NCBI RefSeq assembly: GCF_014137855.1
Contig: NZ_JACGWT010000001.1
Span: 992,001-1,056,000, forward strand
DNA: 64,000 nucleotides
Reading direction: 5' to 3'
Source of the DNA: Microlunatus kandeliicorticis
GTDB lineage: Bacteria; Actinomycetota; Actinomycetes; Propionibacteriales; Propionibacteriaceae
The notes under the pieces were generated by a model. It searched no databases, was not told the DNA's origin, and worked only from the letters and a program-made list of their open reading frames with translations. This document shows, piece after piece, positions 21,070-40,677 of this stretch; the stretch's first letter is position 1, and every line of letters starts with the position of its first letter. A program made the translations under genes and the position numbers.

Positions 21070-22293
21070 TCAGCTGAACGCGTTCTGGCCGGTCAGGGCC
21101 TGACCGATGATCAGCTGGTGCACCTCGGAGGTGCCCTCGTAGGTGAGCACCGACTCGAGGTTGTTGGCGTGCCGGAGCACCGGGTACTCGCCGGTGATGC
21201 CGTTGGCGCCGAGGATCGTCCGGCAGGTGCGGGCGATCTGCAGCGCCTCGCGGACGTTGTTGAGCTTGCCCAGGCTGACCTGTCGCGGGTCGAGGGCGTG
21301 GTCGTCCTTGAGCCGGCCGAGGTGCAGGGCGAGCAGGAACCCCTTCTGCAGCTCGAGGGCCATGTCGGCGAGCTTGGCCTGGGTCAGCTGGAAACCACCC
21401 AGCGGCCGGTCGAAGACCTCGCGGCTGGCCGCGTAGTCGATCGCGGACTGCAGGCAGTCCCGGGCCGCGCCGAGGGCGCCGAAGACGATCCCGAAACGCG
21501 CCTCGTTGAGGCAGGACAGCGGACCGCGCAGGCCGCGGACCTCGGGCAGCACCGCGTCGGCGGGCAGCCGGACCCCCTCGAGCACCAGCTCGGAGGTGAT
21601 CGAGGCCCGCAGCGACAGCTTGTTCCTGATCTTGGGGGCGCTGAAGCCGGGGGTGTCGGTCGGCACCAGGAAGCCGCGGATCCCGCTGCCCTGCTTGACC
21701 GAACCGTCGGGGTGGTGGTCGACCTCGTCGGTCTGCGCCCAGACCACCGCGACGTCGGCGACCGAGCCGTTGGTGATCCACATCTTGGTGCCGTCGAGCA
21801 CCCAGTCGGCGTCCTCCCCGGTGCCGTCGCGGCGGGCCCGGGTGCGCATCGCCGCCGGGTTCGACCCGAAGTCGGGTTCGGTCAGCCCGAAGCAGCCGAT
21901 GGTCTCGCCCTCGGCCATCCGCGGCAGCCAGCGCTGCTTCTGCTCCTCGCTGCCGAACTTCCAGATCGCGAACATGGCCAGCGATCCCTGCACCGAGACC
22001 ATCGAGCGGACGCCCGAGTCGCCGGCCTCGAGCTCGAGGCAGGCCAGGCCGTAGCTGACCGCGTTGGTGCCGGCGCAGCCGTAACCCTGCAGGTGCATGC
22101 CGAGCAGCCCGAGCGACCCGGCCTCCTTGATCAGGGACAGGTCGACCTCGCCGCGCTCGTACCAGTCGGTGACGTAGGGCCGCACCCGCTGGTCGACGAA
22201 CTCGCGCACGGCGCCGGCGATGTCGCGCTCGTCGTCGGTGAGCAGGTGGTCGATCTTGAGCAGCTCCAGGGGCGTGGGGTTGGTCCCGGTCAT
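21070..22293 (-). CDS. gcdH: Glutaryl-CoA dehydrogenase-like acyl-CoA dehydrogenase
   Basis: A 407-residue FAD enzyme. The three acyl-CoA dehydrogenase domains are intact: GCFGLTEPDFGSNP (FAD/substrate), WITNG, and the catalytic Glu in TYEGTSEVHQL with the tail GQALTGQNAF, which resembles glutaryl-CoA dehydrogenases. Those enzymes oxidise and decarboxylate glutaryl-CoA to crotonyl-CoA. It is the last gene of the lat operon, starting one base after the E1 stop. Its place after lysine aminotransferase and an ALDH7 enzyme supports the glutaryl-CoA assignment over other acyl-CoAs. Confidence 0.85.
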   Translation of the reverse strand: MTGTNPTPLELLKIDHLLTDDERDIAGAVREFVDQRVRPYVTDWYERGEVDLSLIKEAGSLGLLGMHLQGYGCAGTNAVSYGLACLELEAGDSGVRSMVSVQGSLAMFAIWKFGSEEQKQRWLPRMAEGETIGCFGLTEPDFGSNPAAMRTRARRDGTGEDADWVLDGTKMWITNGSVADVAVVWAQTDEVDHHPDGSVKQGSGIRGFLVPTDTPGFSAPKIRNKLSLRASITSELVLEGVRLPADAVLPEVRGLRGPLSCLNEARFGIVFGALGAARDCLQSAIDYAASREVFDRPLGGFQLTQAKLADMALELQKGFLLALHLGRLKDDHALDPRQVSLGKLNNVREALQIARTCRTILGANGITGEYPVLRHANNLESVLTYEGTSEVHQLIIGQALTGQNAFS

Positions 22294-22294
22294 C

Positions 22295-24502
22295 TCATCG
22301 TCCTCTCCCGGCCAGCTCGGAGGCGGCCTTCTCGATCTCGTCCTCGCCGAGCAGCACGTGCTCGGTGGCGCGTCCCAGCGGGACGAAGCTGTCGATGCTG
22401 CTGACCCGGGTGATCGGCCCGGTGAACCCGTGCTCGACCAGCGCGGTGATCACGCCCTCGCCGACGCCGCCGCTGTGCCGGGTCTCGTCGACCACCAGCA
22501 CCCGTCCGGTGGCCCGGGCCTGCTCGACGATCTGGGCCACCGGCAGCGGCGACAACCAGCGCAGGTCGAGCACCCGCGACCCGACGCCGGCCTCGGCCAG
22601 CCGCCGGGCGACCCGCAGGCTCATCGGCACCCCGTTGCCGAAGGTGATCATGGTCAGCTGCTCCTCGGCCGCGCTGCCGTGCGCCCGGTGCACCCGGCCC
22701 ACCCCGACCGGCGCGTCGGTGCGGTCGTCGGCGGCCAGCCAGCCGCCGTCCCCGGGCTCGTGCAGGTCGCGGCGGTGGTAGAGCGCGATCGGCTCGAGGA
22801 ACACGCAGACGCTGCCGTCGACGTCGGCGGCGGCCAGACAGGTGCGGAGCATCGCGGCCGCGTCGTCGCCGCGGGACGGGCAGGCCACCACCAGGCCGGG
22901 GACGTCGCGGAGCGAGGCCAGCGCGTTGTCGTTGTGGAAGTGACCGCCGAACCCCTTCTGGTAGGCGAGTCCCGCCACCCGGACGACGAGCGGGTTGCGG
23001 TACTGCCCCGAGGAGAAGAACGACAAGGTGGCCGCCTCGCCGCGGAGCTGGTCGATCGCGTTGTGCAGGTAGGCCAGGTACTGGATCTCGGGGACCGGCC
23101 GCAGCCCGGCCAGCCCGGCGCCGAGGGCCAGCCCGAGGATCGACTGCTCGTCGAGCACGCTGTCGAACACCCGCGCGGCCCCGAACCGCCGGGCCAGCCC
23201 GCCGGTGACGCCGTAGACCCCGCCCTTCACCCCGACGTCCTCGCCGAAGACGGTGGTGCGCGGGTCGGCGGCCAGCGCGTCGGCCAGGGTGGCGTTGATC
23301 GACTCGGCCAGGGTGCGCGGCGGCCCGGACTGGGATCCGCCGCCGAGCTCGCGCGCCCGCGCCGCCACCACGGCCGGACGCCGTGGAGCGAGCGGGGCGA
23401 TCACCTCCGACGTCGAGGCCAGCCCCGATTCGGGGGCGATCTCGGCCGCGGCGGCGTCCACCGCGGCGCGGGCGGCGTCGTAGCGGGCCAGCACCGCGTC
23501 GGCGGAGAGGCCCTGGCCGACCAGGGCGCGGCCGAGTCCGAGCAGCGGGTCGCGGGCGTGGTCGGCCTCGACCGACCGCGGCGTGCGGTAGGCGATCTCG
23601 GCGTCGCTGCCGGCGTGCGCGCCGAACCGGACCGTCCGCAGGTGCAGGAAGACCGGCTGGCCGGCGCGCGCCGTCGCGACGGCGGCGGTGGCCGCGGCCC
23701 AGACCGCGGACGGGTCGGCGCCGTCGGCGGTCAGGTAGGTCAGCCCCGGACGCGAGCCGTACGCCTGGGCGATCCAGCCGGCCGGCGTGGGCACCGAGAT
23801 GCCCCAGCCGTTGTCCTCGCAGACCAGCAGCAGCGGGACCGGGAGCCGCCGGTAGGCCGCGTTCAGCGCGGTGTTCACCGCACCGGCCGCGGTCGAGTGG
23901 TTGGCCGAGGCGTCGCCGAAGCTGCACACCACCACGGCGTCGTCGGGGTAGGGGGTCTCCAGACCGAGCCGGGTGGCCCGGCGCAGCGACAGCGCGAGTC
24001 CGACGGCCCGCGGCAGGTGCGAGGCGATGGTCGAGGTCTGCGGGACCACCCTCAGCGCGGCGTGGCCGAACACCTTGTGCCGGCCGCCGGCGATCGGCTC
24101 GGTCGCCTTGCCGGTCAGCCCGCGCAGGACGTCGTGCACCGGCGTGCTGCCGGGCACCTGCCCGGCCCGGGCGGCGTAGAAGCCGCCTGACCGGTAGTGC
24201 AGCAGCGCCGGGTCGGTCGGCCGGAGGGCCAGCGCCACCAGCGCGTTGCTCTCGTGACCGGAGGACCCGATCGTGTAGAAGCCCTCCCCGCGGGCCTGCA
24301 GCTCGCGGGCCACGACGTCGAGGTGCCGGCTGCTCGCCGCCGCCGCGAATGCCGCCTCGAGCACCGGCACCGGCACCGGCACCGGCGCCGGCTGGGTCGG
24401 GTCGGTGTCGGCCGTACCGGGTCGCGCCGCTGCGAGCGCCGACCGGAGGTGCCGGTCGAGCGCGGCACCGGGAGCCGGGCCGCTCCCGCTCGGGACGTTC
24501 AT
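22295..24502 (-). CDS. Fused E1 alpha-beta 2-oxo acid dehydrogenase (thiamine diphosphate)
   Basis: A 735-residue fusion of both E1 subunits of a 2-oxo acid dehydrogenase. The alpha half (about 40-335) carries the thiamine motif GDASANHS and CEDNGWGIS. The beta half (about 370-735) carries AESINATLADALA, VFGEDVG and LPGD-type loops. E1 decarboxylates the 2-oxo acid and passes the acyl group to a lipoyl E2, which is not encoded here. The branched-chain type is closest by motif. However, the gene lies between the lysine-derived semialdehyde dehydrogenase and glutaryl-CoA dehydrogenase, which suggests 2-oxoadipate as substrate. The linker near residue 40 has a Pro-Val repeat from a DNA microsatellite. 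Confidence 0.85.
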   Translation of the reverse strand: MNVPSGSGPAPGAALDRHLRSALAAARPGTADTDPTQPAPVPVPVPVLEAAFAAAASSRHLDVVARELQARGEGFYTIGSSGHESNALVALALRPTDPALLHYRSGGFYAARAGQVPGSTPVHDVLRGLTGKATEPIAGGRHKVFGHAALRVVPQTSTIASHLPRAVGLALSLRRATRLGLETPYPDDAVVVCSFGDASANHSTAAGAVNTALNAAYRRLPVPLLLVCEDNGWGISVPTPAGWIAQAYGSRPGLTYLTADGADPSAVWAAATAAVATARAGQPVFLHLRTVRFGAHAGSDAEIAYRTPRSVEADHARDPLLGLGRALVGQGLSADAVLARYDAARAAVDAAAAEIAPESGLASTSEVIAPLAPRRPAVVAARARELGGGSQSGPPRTLAESINATLADALAADPRTTVFGEDVGVKGGVYGVTGGLARRFGAARVFDSVLDEQSILGLALGAGLAGLRPVPEIQYLAYLHNAIDQLRGEAATLSFFSSGQYRNPLVVRVAGLAYQKGFGGHFHNDNALASLRDVPGLVVACPSRGDDAAAMLRTCLAAADVDGSVCVFLEPIALYHRRDLHEPGDGGWLAADDRTDAPVGVGRVHRAHGSAAEEQLTMITFGNGVPMSLRVARRLAEAGVGSRVLDLRWLSPLPVAQIVEQARATGRVLVVDETRHSGGVGEGVITALVEHGFTGPITRVSSIDSFVPLGRATEHVLLGEDEIEKAASELAGRGR
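24362..24391. repeat. CACCGG hexamer microsatellite inside the E1 gene
   Basis: Four exact CACCGG units and one variant encode the alternating Pro-Val stretch near the E1 N-terminus. Slippage here would change linker length in steps of two residues. Confidence 0.8.
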
Positions 24503-24524
24503 CGTGTCCGGACCCGCCGAGGGC

Positions 24525-26021
24525 TCAGGACCCGAGCCGGAAGCCGGCGTCGCCGGTCAGCTCGCCGACGTCCATCTGCGCCTTCTGCAGCCGGCCGGAG
24601 TAGTCCCAGTTGACCGACTGCCAGCGGGTGAACTGGTCGAGCACCCAGATGCCCGACTGCCGCGACCCGTTGCCCGACTTGCCGTTCCCGCCGAACGGCA
24701 GGTGCGCCTCGGCGCCGGAGGTCGAGTTGTTGACGCTGACCATCCCGGCGCTGATCCCGTCGCGGAAGCGGAACGCCTCGAGCGCGTCGGAGGTGTAGAT
24801 CGCCGAGCTCAGCCCGTACCCGGGGTGGTTGGCCATCGCGATCGCCTCGTCGAGGTCGCGGTAGGTGGCCACCCCGACGATCGGCCCGAAGGTCTCCTCG
24901 TCGAACAGCCGGTCGCCCGGGCGGGTGCCGTCGACCACGACCGGGTGGTAGTAGAGCCCGGCCCCGGGGTCACCGACGAAACCGTCGCGCGGGTTGTCGG
25001 CGCCGATCCGGCCGGTGGCGCCGTGCACCTTGTGGTGCGGTGCGACCCAGCCGAGGTACTCCTCGTAGCGCTCGGCGAACTTGGCGTCGAGCATCGGGCC
25101 CATCAGCACGTCCTCGGTCGGGTCGCCGACCCGGGCGGCGGCGACCGCCGCGGTGAACCGGGCCAGGAAGTCGTCGTGCACCGACTCGTGGACGATCACC
25201 GTGCCCAGCGAGGTGCAGCGCTGCCCGGCGGTGCCGAACCCGCTGAACAGCGCACCCTCGACGGCCAGGTCGAGGTCGGCGCTCGGCGTGACGACCAGCG
25301 GGTTCTTGCCGCCGAGCTCGAGGCAGGCGGTCTGCAGGTGCCGGCCGGCCAGCGCCCCGATCTCGGCGCCGACGGCCGAGCTGCCGGTGAAGCCGACCTT
25401 GTCGACCAGCCCCTGGTCGAGGGAGCGGCTGAGCCCCTCGAAGGTGGCCGCGCCGTCGGCCTGGACCAGGGTGAAGACCCCGTCGGGCAGCCCGCCGCCG
25501 CGGACGAACAGGTCGCGGAACGCCTCCGAGACCACCGGGGAGTAGTCGGCCGGCTTCCAGACGATGGTGTTGCCGGCCAGCAGCGCCGGGACGATGTACC
25601 AGCTCGGCACCGCGACCGGGAAGTTGCCGGCGGTGATCACCGCGACGGTGCCGACCGGCTTGCGGAAGGTGAACAGCTGCTTGTCGGGCATCTCGCTCGG
25701 GACGGTCTGGCCGTAGAGCCGCCGCCCCTCGCCGAGGAAGAAGTCGCAGGTGTCGACGATCTCGCGGACCTCGCCGAGCGCCTCGGCGTAGGGCTTGCCG
25801 ATCTCGGCGGTGACCAGCCGGGCCAGCGCCTCGGCGTTGGCCTCCACCACCCGGCCGATCTGGGCGATGGCGCGGCCGCGCACCGGGGCCGGGATCCGGG
25901 CCCAGCCGGGCTGCGCGTCGTGGGCCGACTGGGCGGCGGCGACGAAGGTGTCGGCGTCGCCGAGCTCGACCTCGCCGACGACCTGGTCGAGGTGTGCCGG
26001 GTTGGTGCTGGTGATGATCAT
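24525..26021 (-). CDS. Aminoadipate-semialdehyde dehydrogenase (ALDH7-like)
   Basis: A 498-residue aldehyde dehydrogenase with NFPVAVPSW, WKPAD, the base Glu in LELGGKNP and the nucleophile Cys in GTAGQRCTS. The NFPVAV pattern and C-terminal GKSGNGSRQSG fit the ALDH7/antiquitin branch, which converts 2-aminoadipate 6-semialdehyde to 2-aminoadipate. It lies directly behind the lysine 6-aminotransferase gene (80-base gap), whose product is exactly that semialdehyde. The ATG has GGAG upstream and begins the conserved region. The longer upstream frame is discarded because it would overlap lat. Confidence 0.88.
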   Translation of the reverse strand: MIITSTNPAHLDQVVGEVELGDADTFVAAAQSAHDAQPGWARIPAPVRGRAIAQIGRVVEANAEALARLVTAEIGKPYAEALGEVREIVDTCDFFLGEGRRLYGQTVPSEMPDKQLFTFRKPVGTVAVITAGNFPVAVPSWYIVPALLAGNTIVWKPADYSPVVSEAFRDLFVRGGGLPDGVFTLVQADGAATFEGLSRSLDQGLVDKVGFTGSSAVGAEIGALAGRHLQTACLELGGKNPLVVTPSADLDLAVEGALFSGFGTAGQRCTSLGTVIVHESVHDDFLARFTAAVAAARVGDPTEDVLMGPMLDAKFAERYEEYLGWVAPHHKVHGATGRIGADNPRDGFVGDPGAGLYYHPVVVDGTRPGDRLFDEETFGPIVGVATYRDLDEAIAMANHPGYGLSSAIYTSDALEAFRFRDGISAGMVSVNNSTSGAEAHLPFGGNGKSGNGSRQSGIWVLDQFTRWQSVNWDYSGRLQKAQMDVGELTGDAGFRLGS

Positions 26022-26101
26022 GGTGGGTGTCTCCTCACGACCACCGCGCCGCGGCGCCCGCCGGCTCGCGGGGCCGGCGTCGGTGGTCTCGAACGATCGG
26101 G

Positions 26102-27433
26102 TCAGACGATACGGGCGAGCGAGCGGCGCAGCGCGTCGACGGCCTCGTCGAGCTCGGCCTCGGTGACGCTCAGCGCCGGGCGGAACCGGACGGCCCGCTC
26201 GCCGCTGGCCAGCGCCAGCACGTGCTCGGTCTCGCGCAGGTCGGTGAGCAGGGTGTCGCGGGTGCCGCGGTCGGGCAGGTCGGCGGCGATCATCAGCCCG
26301 CGGCCACGGACGTTGGACAGCACGCCGGTCTCGGTGGCGAGCTGCCACAGCCGAGCCACCATCCGGTTGCCCTTCGGCCCGGCCTGCTCGATCAACCCCT
26401 CGGCCTCGATGATCTCCAGCAGCCGGGTGCTGCGGACCATGTCGACCAGGCCGCCGCCCCAGGTGGAGTTGATCCGGCCGGAGACCGCGAACACGTTGTC
26501 GGGGACCTCGTCGACGCGACCGCCGGCCATGATGCCGCCGACCTGCGCCTTCTTGGAGAACGCCACCACGTCAGGGGAGACCCCGAGCTGCTGGTAGGCC
26601 CAGGCGGTGCCGGTGGTGCCGAGCCCGGTCTGCACCTCGTCCATGATCATCAGCGCGTCGTGGTCGTGGACCAGCCGCTGCATGGCCTGCAGGAACTCCG
26701 GCCGCAGGTGGTTGTCGCCGCCCTCGCCCTGGATCGGCTCGCAGACGAAGGCGGCGATGTCGTGCGGGTGCGCGGCGAACGCGGCGCGCGCCTGGTCGAG
26801 CGCGCGCGCCTCGGCAGCCTCGACCTCGGCCCGGTGGTCGGCCAGCGGGAAGGTGATCGCGGGGACGTCGATCCGGGGCCAGTCGAAGGCCGGGAAGCGC
26901 TCGGTCTTGACCGGCTCGGTGTTGGTCAGCGACATCGTGTAGCCGCTGCGGCCGTGGAAGGCGCGGGTCAGGTGCAGGATCCGGGTGCCGAGCCGTGGGT
27001 CGCGGCCGGCGGCCTCGTTCTGTCGGCTCTTCCAGTCGAAGGCCACCTTGAGGGCGTTCTCCACGGCCAGCGCGCCGCCCTCGACGAAGAAGAGGTGCGG
27101 CAGCGCCGGGTCGCCGACGACCCGGGCGAAGGTCTCGACGAACTCGGCGTAGGCGGTGCTGTAGACGTCGGAGTTGGCCGGCTTGTTGGCCGCCACCTGA
27201 CCGAGCCGCTCCATGAACGCCGGGTCGTCGACCACGCCGGTCGGGTTGAGCCCCAGCGGGGCCGAGGCGAAGAAGGTGTAGAGGTCGAGGTAGCGCTGCC
27301 CGGTGCGGGCGTCGACCACCCGGCTGCCGCGGCTGGCGGTCAGGTCGATGACCAGCTTGAAGCCGTCGGTGAGGACGTGGCGCCCGAGGACCTCGTGGAC
27401 CTCGGCGGGGGCGACGGTGGCATGTTCGGCCAT
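26102..27433 (-). CDS. lat: L-lysine 6-transaminase
   Basis: A 443-residue class III aminotransferase using pyridoxal phosphate. Recognisable motifs are LYTFFASAPLG, FFVEGGALAVENALKVAFDWK, CEPIQGEGGDNH, MDEVQTGLG and the Schiff-base Lys in AFSKKAQVGG. The double glycine and the FDWKSRQN context are typical of lysine-epsilon aminotransferases, known from cephamycin producers and mycobacteria. It moves the epsilon amino group to 2-oxoglutarate, giving aminoadipate semialdehyde. It is the first gene of a four-gene operon. The ATG follows GGAGT by seven bases. Confidence 0.93.
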   Translation of the reverse strand: MAEHATVAPAEVHEVLGRHVLTDGFKLVIDLTASRGSRVVDARTGQRYLDLYTFFASAPLGLNPTGVVDDPAFMERLGQVAANKPANSDVYSTAYAEFVETFARVVGDPALPHLFFVEGGALAVENALKVAFDWKSRQNEAAGRDPRLGTRILHLTRAFHGRSGYTMSLTNTEPVKTERFPAFDWPRIDVPAITFPLADHRAEVEAAEARALDQARAAFAAHPHDIAAFVCEPIQGEGGDNHLRPEFLQAMQRLVHDHDALMIMDEVQTGLGTTGTAWAYQQLGVSPDVVAFSKKAQVGGIMAGGRVDEVPDNVFAVSGRINSTWGGGLVDMVRSTRLLEIIEAEGLIEQAGPKGNRMVARLWQLATETGVLSNVRGRGLMIAADLPDRGTRDTLLTDLRETEHVLALASGERAVRFRPALSVTEAELDEAVDALRRSLARIV

Positions 27434-39264: not shown

Positions 39265-40677
39265 GTGACTCGCGTGGTGATCGTCGGTGGCGGCCCCGGT
39301 GGCTACGAGGCCGCCCTGGTGGGCAGCCAGCTCGGCGGCGACGTCACGCTGGTCGACACCGACGGGCTCGGCGGCTCGGCCGTGCTGACCGACTGCGTCC
39401 CGTCGAAGACCCTGATCGCCACCGCCGAGGTGATGACCGAGGTCAAGGCCTCGACCGAGCTCGGGCTGCGGTTCGGCCGGCACGGCGAGGATACCGTCGA
39501 GGGTCAGGTGAACGTCGACCTGGCGATGGTCAACCAGCGGGTCAAGCGGCTCGCCCAGGCCCAGAGCGCCGACATCGTCGACCGGATCCGGCGCGAGGGC
39601 ATCCGGGTGGTCACCGGACGCGGCCGGCTCGACGGCCCGGAGCGGGTGGTCGCCGAGACCGCCGACGGCGAGCAGAGCTTCGACGCCGACGTGGTGCTGA
39701 TCGCCACCGGCGCGCACCCGCGGGTGCTGCCCGACGCGGTGCCCGACGGCGAGCGGATCCTCACCTGGACCCAGGTCTACGAGCTCACCGAGCTGCCCGA
39801 GCGGCTGATCGTGGTCGGCTCCGGCGTGACCGGGGCCGAGTTCGCCAGCGCCTACGACGCGCTCGGCGTCGACGTGGTGCTGGTCAGCTCGCGCGACCGG
39901 GTGCTCCCCGGCGAGGACGCCGACGCGGCCCGGGTGCTCGAGGACGTCTTCACCCGCCGCGGGATGACCGTGCTGTCGCGGTCGCGGGCCGCGGGGGTGG
40001 TCCGCGACGGCGACCAGGTCACCGTCACCCTGACCGACGGCCGCATCGTCACCGGCTCGCACTGTCTGCTGGCGGTCGGGTCGATCCCCAACACCGCGGA
40101 CATGGGGCTTGACACCGCCCGGGTGGACGTCGACCGCGGCGGCTTCGTCACCGTCGACCGGGTGTCGCGGACCTCGGCTCGCGGCGTCTACGCGGCCGGC
40201 GACTGCACCGGCGTGATGATGCTGGCCTCGGTGGCCGCCATGCAGGGCCGGATCGCCATGTGGCACGCGCTGGGCGACGCGGTCAGCCCGCTCGACCTGC
40301 GCTCGGTCAGCTCGAACGTCTTCACCTCGCCCGAGATCGCCACCGTCGGCGCCACCCAGGAGCAGGTCGACAACGGCGAGGTCCGCGCGATCAAGGTCAG
40401 CCTGCCGCTCCGCGGGAACGCCCGGGCCAAGATGCAGGGCATCCGGGACGGCTTCGTCAAGCTGTTCTGCCTGCCCGCCACCGGGATCATCGTCGGCGGG
40501 GTGGTGGTGGCCCCGCGAGCCAGCGAGCTGATCCACGCCGTGTCGGTCGCGGTCGCCGAGCGGATCACCGTCGACCAGCTGGCCGCCGACTTCACCGTCT
40601 ACCCGTCGCTGTCCGGATCGGTGGCCGAGGCGGCGCGGCGGCTGCACGGCCACAGCGTGGCGCAGCTGGTCACGTGA
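39265..40677 (+). CDS. lpdA: NAD(P)H-quinone dehydrogenase (LpdA-type flavoprotein)
   Basis: A 470-residue protein of the flavoprotein disulfide reductase family. It has the FAD motif GGGPGGYEAA, the NAD motif VVGSGVTGAEFASAY and FAD motif YAAGDCTG. The redox pair CxxxxC of lipoamide dehydrogenases is replaced by SAVLTDC, leaving one Cys, and the C-terminal HPT-type catalytic region is not conserved. It is therefore an LpdA (Rv3303c-like) quinone reductase and not an E3 subunit. The GTG at 39265 precedes the first strand directly. It overlaps the sirtuin start. Confidence 0.9.
   Translation: MTRVVIVGGGPGGYEAALVGSQLGGDVTLVDTDGLGGSAVLTDCVPSKTLIATAEVMTEVKASTELGLRFGRHGEDTVEGQVNVDLAMVNQRVKRLAQAQSADIVDRIRREGIRVVTGRGRLDGPERVVAETADGEQSFDADVVLIATGAHPRVLPDAVPDGERILTWTQVYELTELPERLIVVGSGVTGAEFASAYDALGVDVVLVSSRDRVLPGEDADAARVLEDVFTRRGMTVLSRSRAAGVVRDGDQVTVTLTDGRIVTGSHCLLAVGSIPNTADMGLDTARVDVDRGGFVTVDRVSRTSARGVYAAGDCTGVMMLASVAAMQGRIAMWHALGDAVSPLDLRSVSSNVFTSPEIATVGATQEQVDNGEVRAIKVSLPLRGNARAKMQGIRDGFVKLFCLPATGIIVGGVVVAPRASELIHAVSVAVAERITVDQLAADFTVYPSLSGSVAEAARRLHGHSVAQLVT

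Follow-up and report, generated by a model that had tools for sequence, protein, structure and literature searches.

The window analysed here, a stretch of 64,000 nucleotides from Microlunatus kandeliicorticis (bases 992001–1056000 of contig C1; genome 4.3 Mb), contains a four-gene operon that would lead from L-lysine to crotonyl-CoA, and its third gene encodes both parts of an α-β E1 component in one frame. As judged from its sequence and surroundings, this fused E1 is probably an orphan, additional 2-oxoadipate E1 which belongs to the pyruvate dehydrogenase (PDH)/branched-chain 2-oxo acid dehydrogenase (BCKDH) α-β lineage, stands outside the 2-oxoglutarate dehydrogenase (OGDH)/DHTKD1 group and borrows its E2 and E3. 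What would be new is the lineage of the enzyme; the reaction itself is known. The operon itself is confirmed: the coordinates bear out the order lat, aldehyde dehydrogenase, fused E1 and acyl-CoA dehydrogenase given in an earlier note on this DNA, with gaps of 80, 22 and 1 bases and all four genes on the minus strand. The features are as follows (P6C, piperideine-6-carboxylate; aa, amino acids).

26102–27433, minus strand: lat, L-lysine 6-aminotransferase (LAT; lysine to 2-aminoadipate 6-semialdehyde/P6C), 443 aa; TIGR03251, Aminotran_3
24525–26021, minus strand: aldehyde dehydrogenase (ALDH), putative aminoadipate-semialdehyde/P6C dehydrogenase, 498 aa; PF00171 with 432 bits; follows lat in relatives
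22295–24502, minus strand: fused E1 α-β, putative 2-oxoadipate dehydrogenase E1, 735 aa; PF00676, PF02779 and PF02780 in one frame; fold model; family invariants
23438–24331, minus strand: α part of the fused E1, residues 58–355, with H102, the invariant R141, H142 and K143, and H202
22370–23317, minus strand: β part of the fused E1, residues 396–711, with E452, Y478, H480, R487 and H523
21070–22293, minus strand: probable glutaryl-CoA dehydrogenase (GCDH; glutaryl-CoA to crotonyl-CoA), 407 aa; nearest structures; R96 and E386 aligned to human GCDH 1siq

The operon and the proposed pathway

In the proposed pathway LAT, placed in its curated family by a hidden Markov model, would convert lysine to aminoadipate semialdehyde/P6C, which the ALDH would oxidize to 2-aminoadipate. 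An enzyme encoded elsewhere in the genome would take off the amino group to yield 2-oxoadipate, and the fused E1 would decarboxylate it with thiamine diphosphate (ThDP) and load the glutaryl group onto a lipoyl domain. Shared E2 and E3 components would release glutaryl-CoA and NADH, and GCDH, assigned to its family by sequence, would form crotonyl-CoA. For its partner, the fused E1 would most likely turn to the E2-E3 pair encoded on contig C3; the OdhA-like protein might contribute its succinyltransferase domain to acyl transfer. A wider proposal, which we put forward tentatively as a possibility, is that of a second, independently evolved 2-oxoadipate dehydrogenase: widespread orphan single-chain α-β E1s, with basic invariant residues for dicarboxylic 2-oxo acids, would act as a third E1 in the actinobacterial PDH-ODH supercomplex, where the shared E2 would supply lipoyl domains and the OdhA succinyltransferase domain would serve as glutaryl transferase.

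LAT scored 697.2 bits against TIGR03251 (L-lysine 6-transaminase) and thereby passed the cut-off of 520.8. The second protein is indeed an aldehyde dehydrogenase, whereas its earlier label "ALDH7-type" turned out to be imprecise: its best matches among solved chains are four entries named "Aldehyde dehydrogenase" (493–500 bits), the first being 6fjx, which appears in a paper on a Thermus thermophilus enzyme (here and below, literature statements refer to the available portions of the papers). These were followed by Pcd 6rtr (302 bits), 6dbb (261 bits) and antiquitin 2jg7 (256 bits). The best NCBIfam model, NF050084 (P6C dehydrogenase), gave 353.9 bits, below its cut-off of 730. Since the protein is nearer to 6fjx than to Pcd and antiquitin and stays below the P6C dehydrogenase cut-off, its function is proposed from its position after lat.

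For the fourth protein the best solved matches are the glutaryl-CoA dehydrogenases 3swo (597 bits) and 3sf6 (586 bits), with human 1siq at 362 bits. Its R96 and E386 align with an Arg and a Glu of 1siq, which we take to be the active-site residues of the human enzyme. Against NCBIfam NF045552 it scored 183 bits, under the cut-off of 470. The glutaryl-CoA dehydrogenase named in the earlier note fits the structural neighbours and these two residues, and is proposed here at the level of the family.

Domains, fold and invariant residues of the fused E1

The single open frame carries PF00676 (residues 58–354), PF02779 (398–569) and PF02780 (612–711), which is the make-up of PDH/BCKDH-type α-β E1s (E1_dh, Transket_pyr and Transketolase_C). 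No NCBIfam E1 cut-off was reached; consequently, of the "branched-chain-type fused E1" described before, the fused α-β E1 stands and "branched-chain-type" has to be widened to PDH/BCKDH α-β type. No OGDH model was found among its three Pfam and seven NCBIfam matches, and Transketolase_C is present. DHTKD1 is an OGDH-like E1, and it is by the domain make-up of OGDH-type E1s that the fused E1 is set apart from this group.

An AlphaFold2 model based on an alignment of 38 sequences reached a pLDDT of 87.9 and a pTM of 0.90. In Foldseek searches most of the model was matched by single-chain ThDP enzymes (transketolase, OdhA and the SucA domain of MsKGD; TMq ~0.6, rmsd 7–12 Å), and the β part by PDH and BCKDH β subunits (1w85_B and 1um9_B) with TMt values of 0.90–0.91.

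Three basic residues are practically invariant in the fused E1 family of 126 rows, namely R487 (126/126), H480 (125/126) and H102 (124/126). The branched-chain (bkd) E1 of the same genome has Val, Phe and Thr, respectively, at these positions. Five solved β subunits carry Val, Cys or Leu opposite R487 and Phe, Tyr or Trp opposite H480, and human BCKDH α has Gln opposite H102. H480 lies two residues past Y478 and H102 immediately ahead of the Tyr-Arg pair, in segments which we presume to correspond to active-site segments of BCKDH. Possibly, H102, H480 and R487 bind the far carboxylate of the substrate.

The triplet R141-H142-K143 is invariant as well and gives a hint of a further family mark. 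The stretch is hard to align: the bkd E1 of the genome has a gap there, and in the HMMER alignment the triplet faces Gln-Met-Pro of human BCKDH α; moving the alignment there by one residue would pair both Arg. Three other residues were dropped as family marks: H521 is also His in 1um9, R112 is also Arg in human BCKDH α, and H162 is presumably His in the α subunit of T. thermophilus, too.

E1, E2 and E3 components of the genome

A search with PF00676 over the whole genome returned, besides the fused E1, the bkd α subunit (contig C2), an OdhA-like frame (C5) and one weak match on C4. The bkd operon on C2 has the order E1α-E1β-E2. Furthermore, a split-type β subunit was present in all 12 tested genomes with a fused E1 (70–77% identical to the bkd β subunit in 10 of them, 58–59% in two), so that the fused E1 comes in addition to other E1s.

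PF00198 matched E2s on C3 and C2 and a domain within the C5 frame. By eye, two lipoyl-type repeats can be made out in the C3 E2, and the adjoining E3-like gene has both Cys of the CxxxxC motif. Within the 64 kb of the window there was no match to the E2s of the genome, hence no linked dedicated E2 of the kind that would mark a BCKDH. With the same E2s as queries, which a very different E2 could escape, an E2 was found near the fused E1 at only two of 135 loci plus the window. The E2 reported missing here is missing beside nearly all fused E1s searched, which points to shared E2 and E3 components as for human DHTKD1. The two E2 matches lie at L110:8657–9937 and L159:11812–12360, and the E1s of both loci group with L114 in the E1 tree.

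The earlier note lists the E3 as missing, too; the window does contain one E3-family protein (39265–40677, plus strand). It was rejected as E3, since of the two redox cysteines in the CxxxxC motif the first is absent, and this lipoamide-dehydrogenase-like protein is probably of the quinone reductase type.

Gene order in relatives

In the same genus (20 genomes including that of the window) a full or near-full fused E1 was found in 14. The regions taken from 11 of the 13 other carriers show LAT-ALDH-E1-GCDH in nine cases and LAT-E1-GCDH in two. The complete four-gene order, whose conservation the earlier note had asked about, was also found at L035 and L036 (Phytoactinopolyspora), and ALDH-E1-GCDH on the short contig L037. 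The latter belongs to a metagenome-assembled Propionibacteriaceae genome and is the nearest named row to the window E1 in the E1 tree, of which only groupings inside the family were used and not the root or deep order, as the outgroups came from overlong or wrong frames and their branches amount to 8 to 10 changes per column. LAT-ALDH-E1 occurs in Intrasporangium (L040, where the contig ends), in Streptomyces (L041), at L163 and at L185 (with ALDH and E1 2.1 kb apart), and L043 has these three genes with LAT divergent. L041 and L164 are apparently one contig.

In Saccharopolyspora, Actinomadura and Kribbella the E1 adjoins an ALDH together with a DAO-type oxidase or a Glu/Leu/Phe/Val (ELFV)-type dehydrogenase. 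The order is ALDH-ELFV-E1 in Saccharopolyspora L039 and ALDH-DAO-ELFV-E1 in L045; E1, ALDH and DAO occur in Kribbella and in f2 genomes grouping with Kribbella (L064, L067, L160 and L161). At L170 (6473–13792), whose E1 groups near mycobacterial rows, GCDH-E1-ALDH-ELFV-DAO lie on one strand, the ALDH being 39% identical and the DAO consisting of two adjoining pieces. This row resembles a complete operon that would lead from pipecolate or aminoadipate to crotonyl-CoA and that includes a candidate 2-aminoadipate dehydrogenase. Here we infer a pipecolate-type oxidase for DAO and a 2-aminoadipate dehydrogenase for ELFV; the Kribbella DAO scored 63 bits against the pipecolate oxidase cut-off of 600, and the closest models for ELFV are those of glutamate dehydrogenase, again below cut-off.

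Members of the fused E1 family occur in Actinomycetota, Myxococcota, Alpha- and Gammaproteobacteria. On two Ruegeria plasmids the row is aminotransferase, GCDH-type acyl-CoA dehydrogenase (ACAD), fused E1 and a malonyltransferase-like gene; on a Shewanella plasmid it is ACAD, E1 and the malonyltransferase-like gene. These are three of the five plasmid records found, the others being Nonomuraea (unannotated there) and Legionella. The E1s are 49% (Ruegeria) and 45% (Shewanella) identical to that of the window, and the ACADs of both genera share 47% identity with the GCDH of the window (for Ruegeria, one of the two records was compared).

The malonyltransferase-like protein directly follows the fused E1 in these records (L202:10055–11092, L203:10055–11092 and L204:10142–11215). 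It stays far under the cut-offs of the FabD and MdcH models (L202, L204) and has GNSMG in place of GHSxG; a search of the window region and 131 other loci gave no match to it. One possible role is that of an acyl transferase which acts on the E1 product and replaces E2.

Distribution of the fused E1 and competing explanations

Among 126 fused E1 loci, 38 had at least one of LAT, ALDH, GCDH, DAO and ELFV within 6 kb, in 34 cases on the same strand; of the 80 loci that came from the genome-wide scan, 20 did. For comparison, none of 19 split bkd-type E1 regions contained any of the five neighbour types and 17 contained an E2, in a control of ~15 kb regions from genomes also holding a fused E1 (two shortened by contig ends), with fewer regions and a narrower taxonomic range than the fused E1 loci. 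Of 396 sampled genomes, 38 carried the fused E1, 34 LAT and 130 GCDH. E1 and LAT occurred together in 18 genomes, with 3.3 of 396 expected (one-sided Fisher p 5e-12), and in 13 genera, with 2.0 of 246 expected; the p-values given here ignore relatedness, and the sample includes the genome of the window. Gene order, its recurrence in distant genomes, the contrast to split E1s and the invariant residues together support the original proposal of a lysine operon with an α-β E1 at the 2-oxoadipate step.

Several observations weigh against this assignment. None of the five neighbours lies within 6 kb at 88 of the 126 loci, where some contigs do not reach that far, and the window and its genus make up 12 of the 38 positive loci, so that 38 is not a count of independent events. 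E1 and GCDH are only weakly enriched together (19 genomes versus 12.5 expected, p 0.016), and no GCDH reached E ≤ 1e-100 in 11 of the 18 genomes that have both E1 and LAT; nine of these 11 have a relative with 36–43% identity (226–281 bits), and two have nothing above 172 bits. In Nocardia the fused E1 gene follows 6-phosphogluconolactonase, and in Streptosporangiaceae genes for an acyl-CoA carboxylase, HMG-CoA lyase and ACAD, which could be leucine genes, are a few kb away from it. In view of the 88 loci, these two settings and the missing close GCDH, part of the family may have another role; nonetheless, H102, H480 and R487 are kept in nearly all family rows. That these residues face the substrate is deduced from alignment, by which they were placed. 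K426, although invariant in the family, was rejected as a further mark because two of the five solved β subunits are basic there (Arg in 1um9, Lys in 1ik6).

With ELFV and the Ruegeria aminotransferase as queries, the aminoadipate-deaminating enzyme of the genome could not be pinned down. ELFV had no match in the genome and is seemingly not the missing step here, and the best relative of the Ruegeria aminotransferase, only 36% identical, was left unnamed. In relatives the step is probably catalyzed by an aminotransferase (Ruegeria) or an ELFV-type dehydrogenase (Saccharopolyspora, L170). Finally, MsKGD, an OdhA homologue, already processes 2-oxoadipate and forms intermediates from it (PMC10415282); therefore, a dedicated E1 is not strictly needed.

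The last point leads to an explanation in which OdhA or another E1 handles 2-oxoadipate and the operon mainly makes 2-aminoadipate or removes P6C, in line with Streptomyces, where LAT and Pcd make aminoadipate for cephamycin (PMC9854754). We consider it very improbable, as E1 and GCDH genes are part of the operon too, with a single base between them in the window, and are found paired elsewhere as well.

The PDH/BCKDH α-β type of the fused E1 and its Streptosporangiaceae neighbours would suit a second branched-chain or general aliphatic 2-oxo acid dehydrogenase that is co-transcribed with lysine genes by chance. This appears unlikely, given the bkd operon and the split-type β subunits in all tested fused-E1 genomes, the absence of lysine genes from the split-E1 regions, the three invariant residues and the pairing of GCDH with E1 across phyla.

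Another explanation arises from mycobacterial loci. At L048 (2097–12184) and L054, subunits of a xanthine-dehydrogenase-like hydroxylase, an amidohydrolase-like gene, GCDH and the fused E1 were found; at L063, whose contig begins later than the hydroxylase position, the last three are present. The amidohydrolase-like gene was named by eye at all three loci and has no NCBIfam match. Perhaps these loci serve the degradation of a ring compound to 2-oxoadipate. As they are not plainly lysine loci, and many fused E1s have no lysine gene nearby, the main substrate of the E1 might be a different dicarboxylic 2-oxo acid (2-oxoglutarate, 2-oxopimelate or a ring-cleavage product), and 2-oxoadipate a secondary one. 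We give this a small though not negligible chance: GCDH lies beside E1 in the mycobacterial loci too, which makes glutaryl-CoA the likely product there as well, and LAT and E1 co-occur. The preferred assignment remains an orphan 2-oxoadipate E1.

Comparison with known systems

The human 2-oxoadipate dehydrogenase complex resembles the proposed system in its reaction and its place before GCDH in lysine breakdown. Its E1, DHTKD1, shares subunits with another complex (PMC9367764, PMC10415282). Unlike DHTKD1, the window E1 consists of PF00676, PF02779 and PF02780 and ends in Transketolase_C.

With the α2β2 E1s of BCKDH (T. thermophilus 1um9, human 1dtw and Pseudomonas putida 1qs0) the fused E1 shares the α-β fold as well as aligned β Glu and His residues and an α Tyr-Arg pair, for which we assume catalytic roles. 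It differs in being one chain instead of two, in the replacement of neutral or aromatic residues by H480, R487 and H102, in lacking a linked E2 and in its other gene neighbours.

OdhA/KGD, the actinobacterial two-in-one 2-oxoglutarate dehydrogenase, is among the fold matches of the model and is likewise an E1 that takes the lipoyl group in trans, E2p being the only lipoylated protein reported in two species (PMC10415282). In contrast to the window E1, it is an OGDH-type E1 fused to a succinyltransferase domain, and the OdhA-like frame is separate here (C5). The Ruegeria proteins WP_117873059 and WP_152460113 (the latter ~49% identical) are relatives of the window E1 that also adjoin a GCDH-type gene, but there the malonyltransferase-like gene follows. 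Such Ruegeria proteins are annotated, with no substrate given, as "alpha-ketoacid dehydrogenase subunit alpha/beta" or "thiamine pyrophosphate-dependent enzyme".

In resting Agrobacterium cells biotin or its precursor was made from 2-oxoadipate, and the available portions of this work name no enzyme for the step to glutaryl-CoA (PMC7645780). In Phaeobacter, lysine label passed via 2-aminoadipate and pipecolate routes with 2-oxoadipate undetected (PMC5653290). None of four papers (PMC10415282, PMC7645780, PMC5653290 and PMC9854754) names, in its available text, a bacterial enzyme for 2-oxoadipate to glutaryl-CoA, and a bacterial α-β 2-oxoadipate E1 was absent from the matches listed in mainly open-access literature, as judged by title and start of the abstract. 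The fused E1 family, which has generic annotation only and occurs in about one tenth of the phylum-wide sample (38/396 genomes), would fill this gap. If the assignment is true, the 2-oxoadipate step evolved twice, from two E1 lineages, and an E1 gene can move between genomes without an E2 of its own.

As a further observation, at L176 (4077–9841) and L184 (5756–11582) the fused E1 lies, by eye, inside an apparent homoserine dehydrogenase - threonine synthase - homoserine kinase operon.

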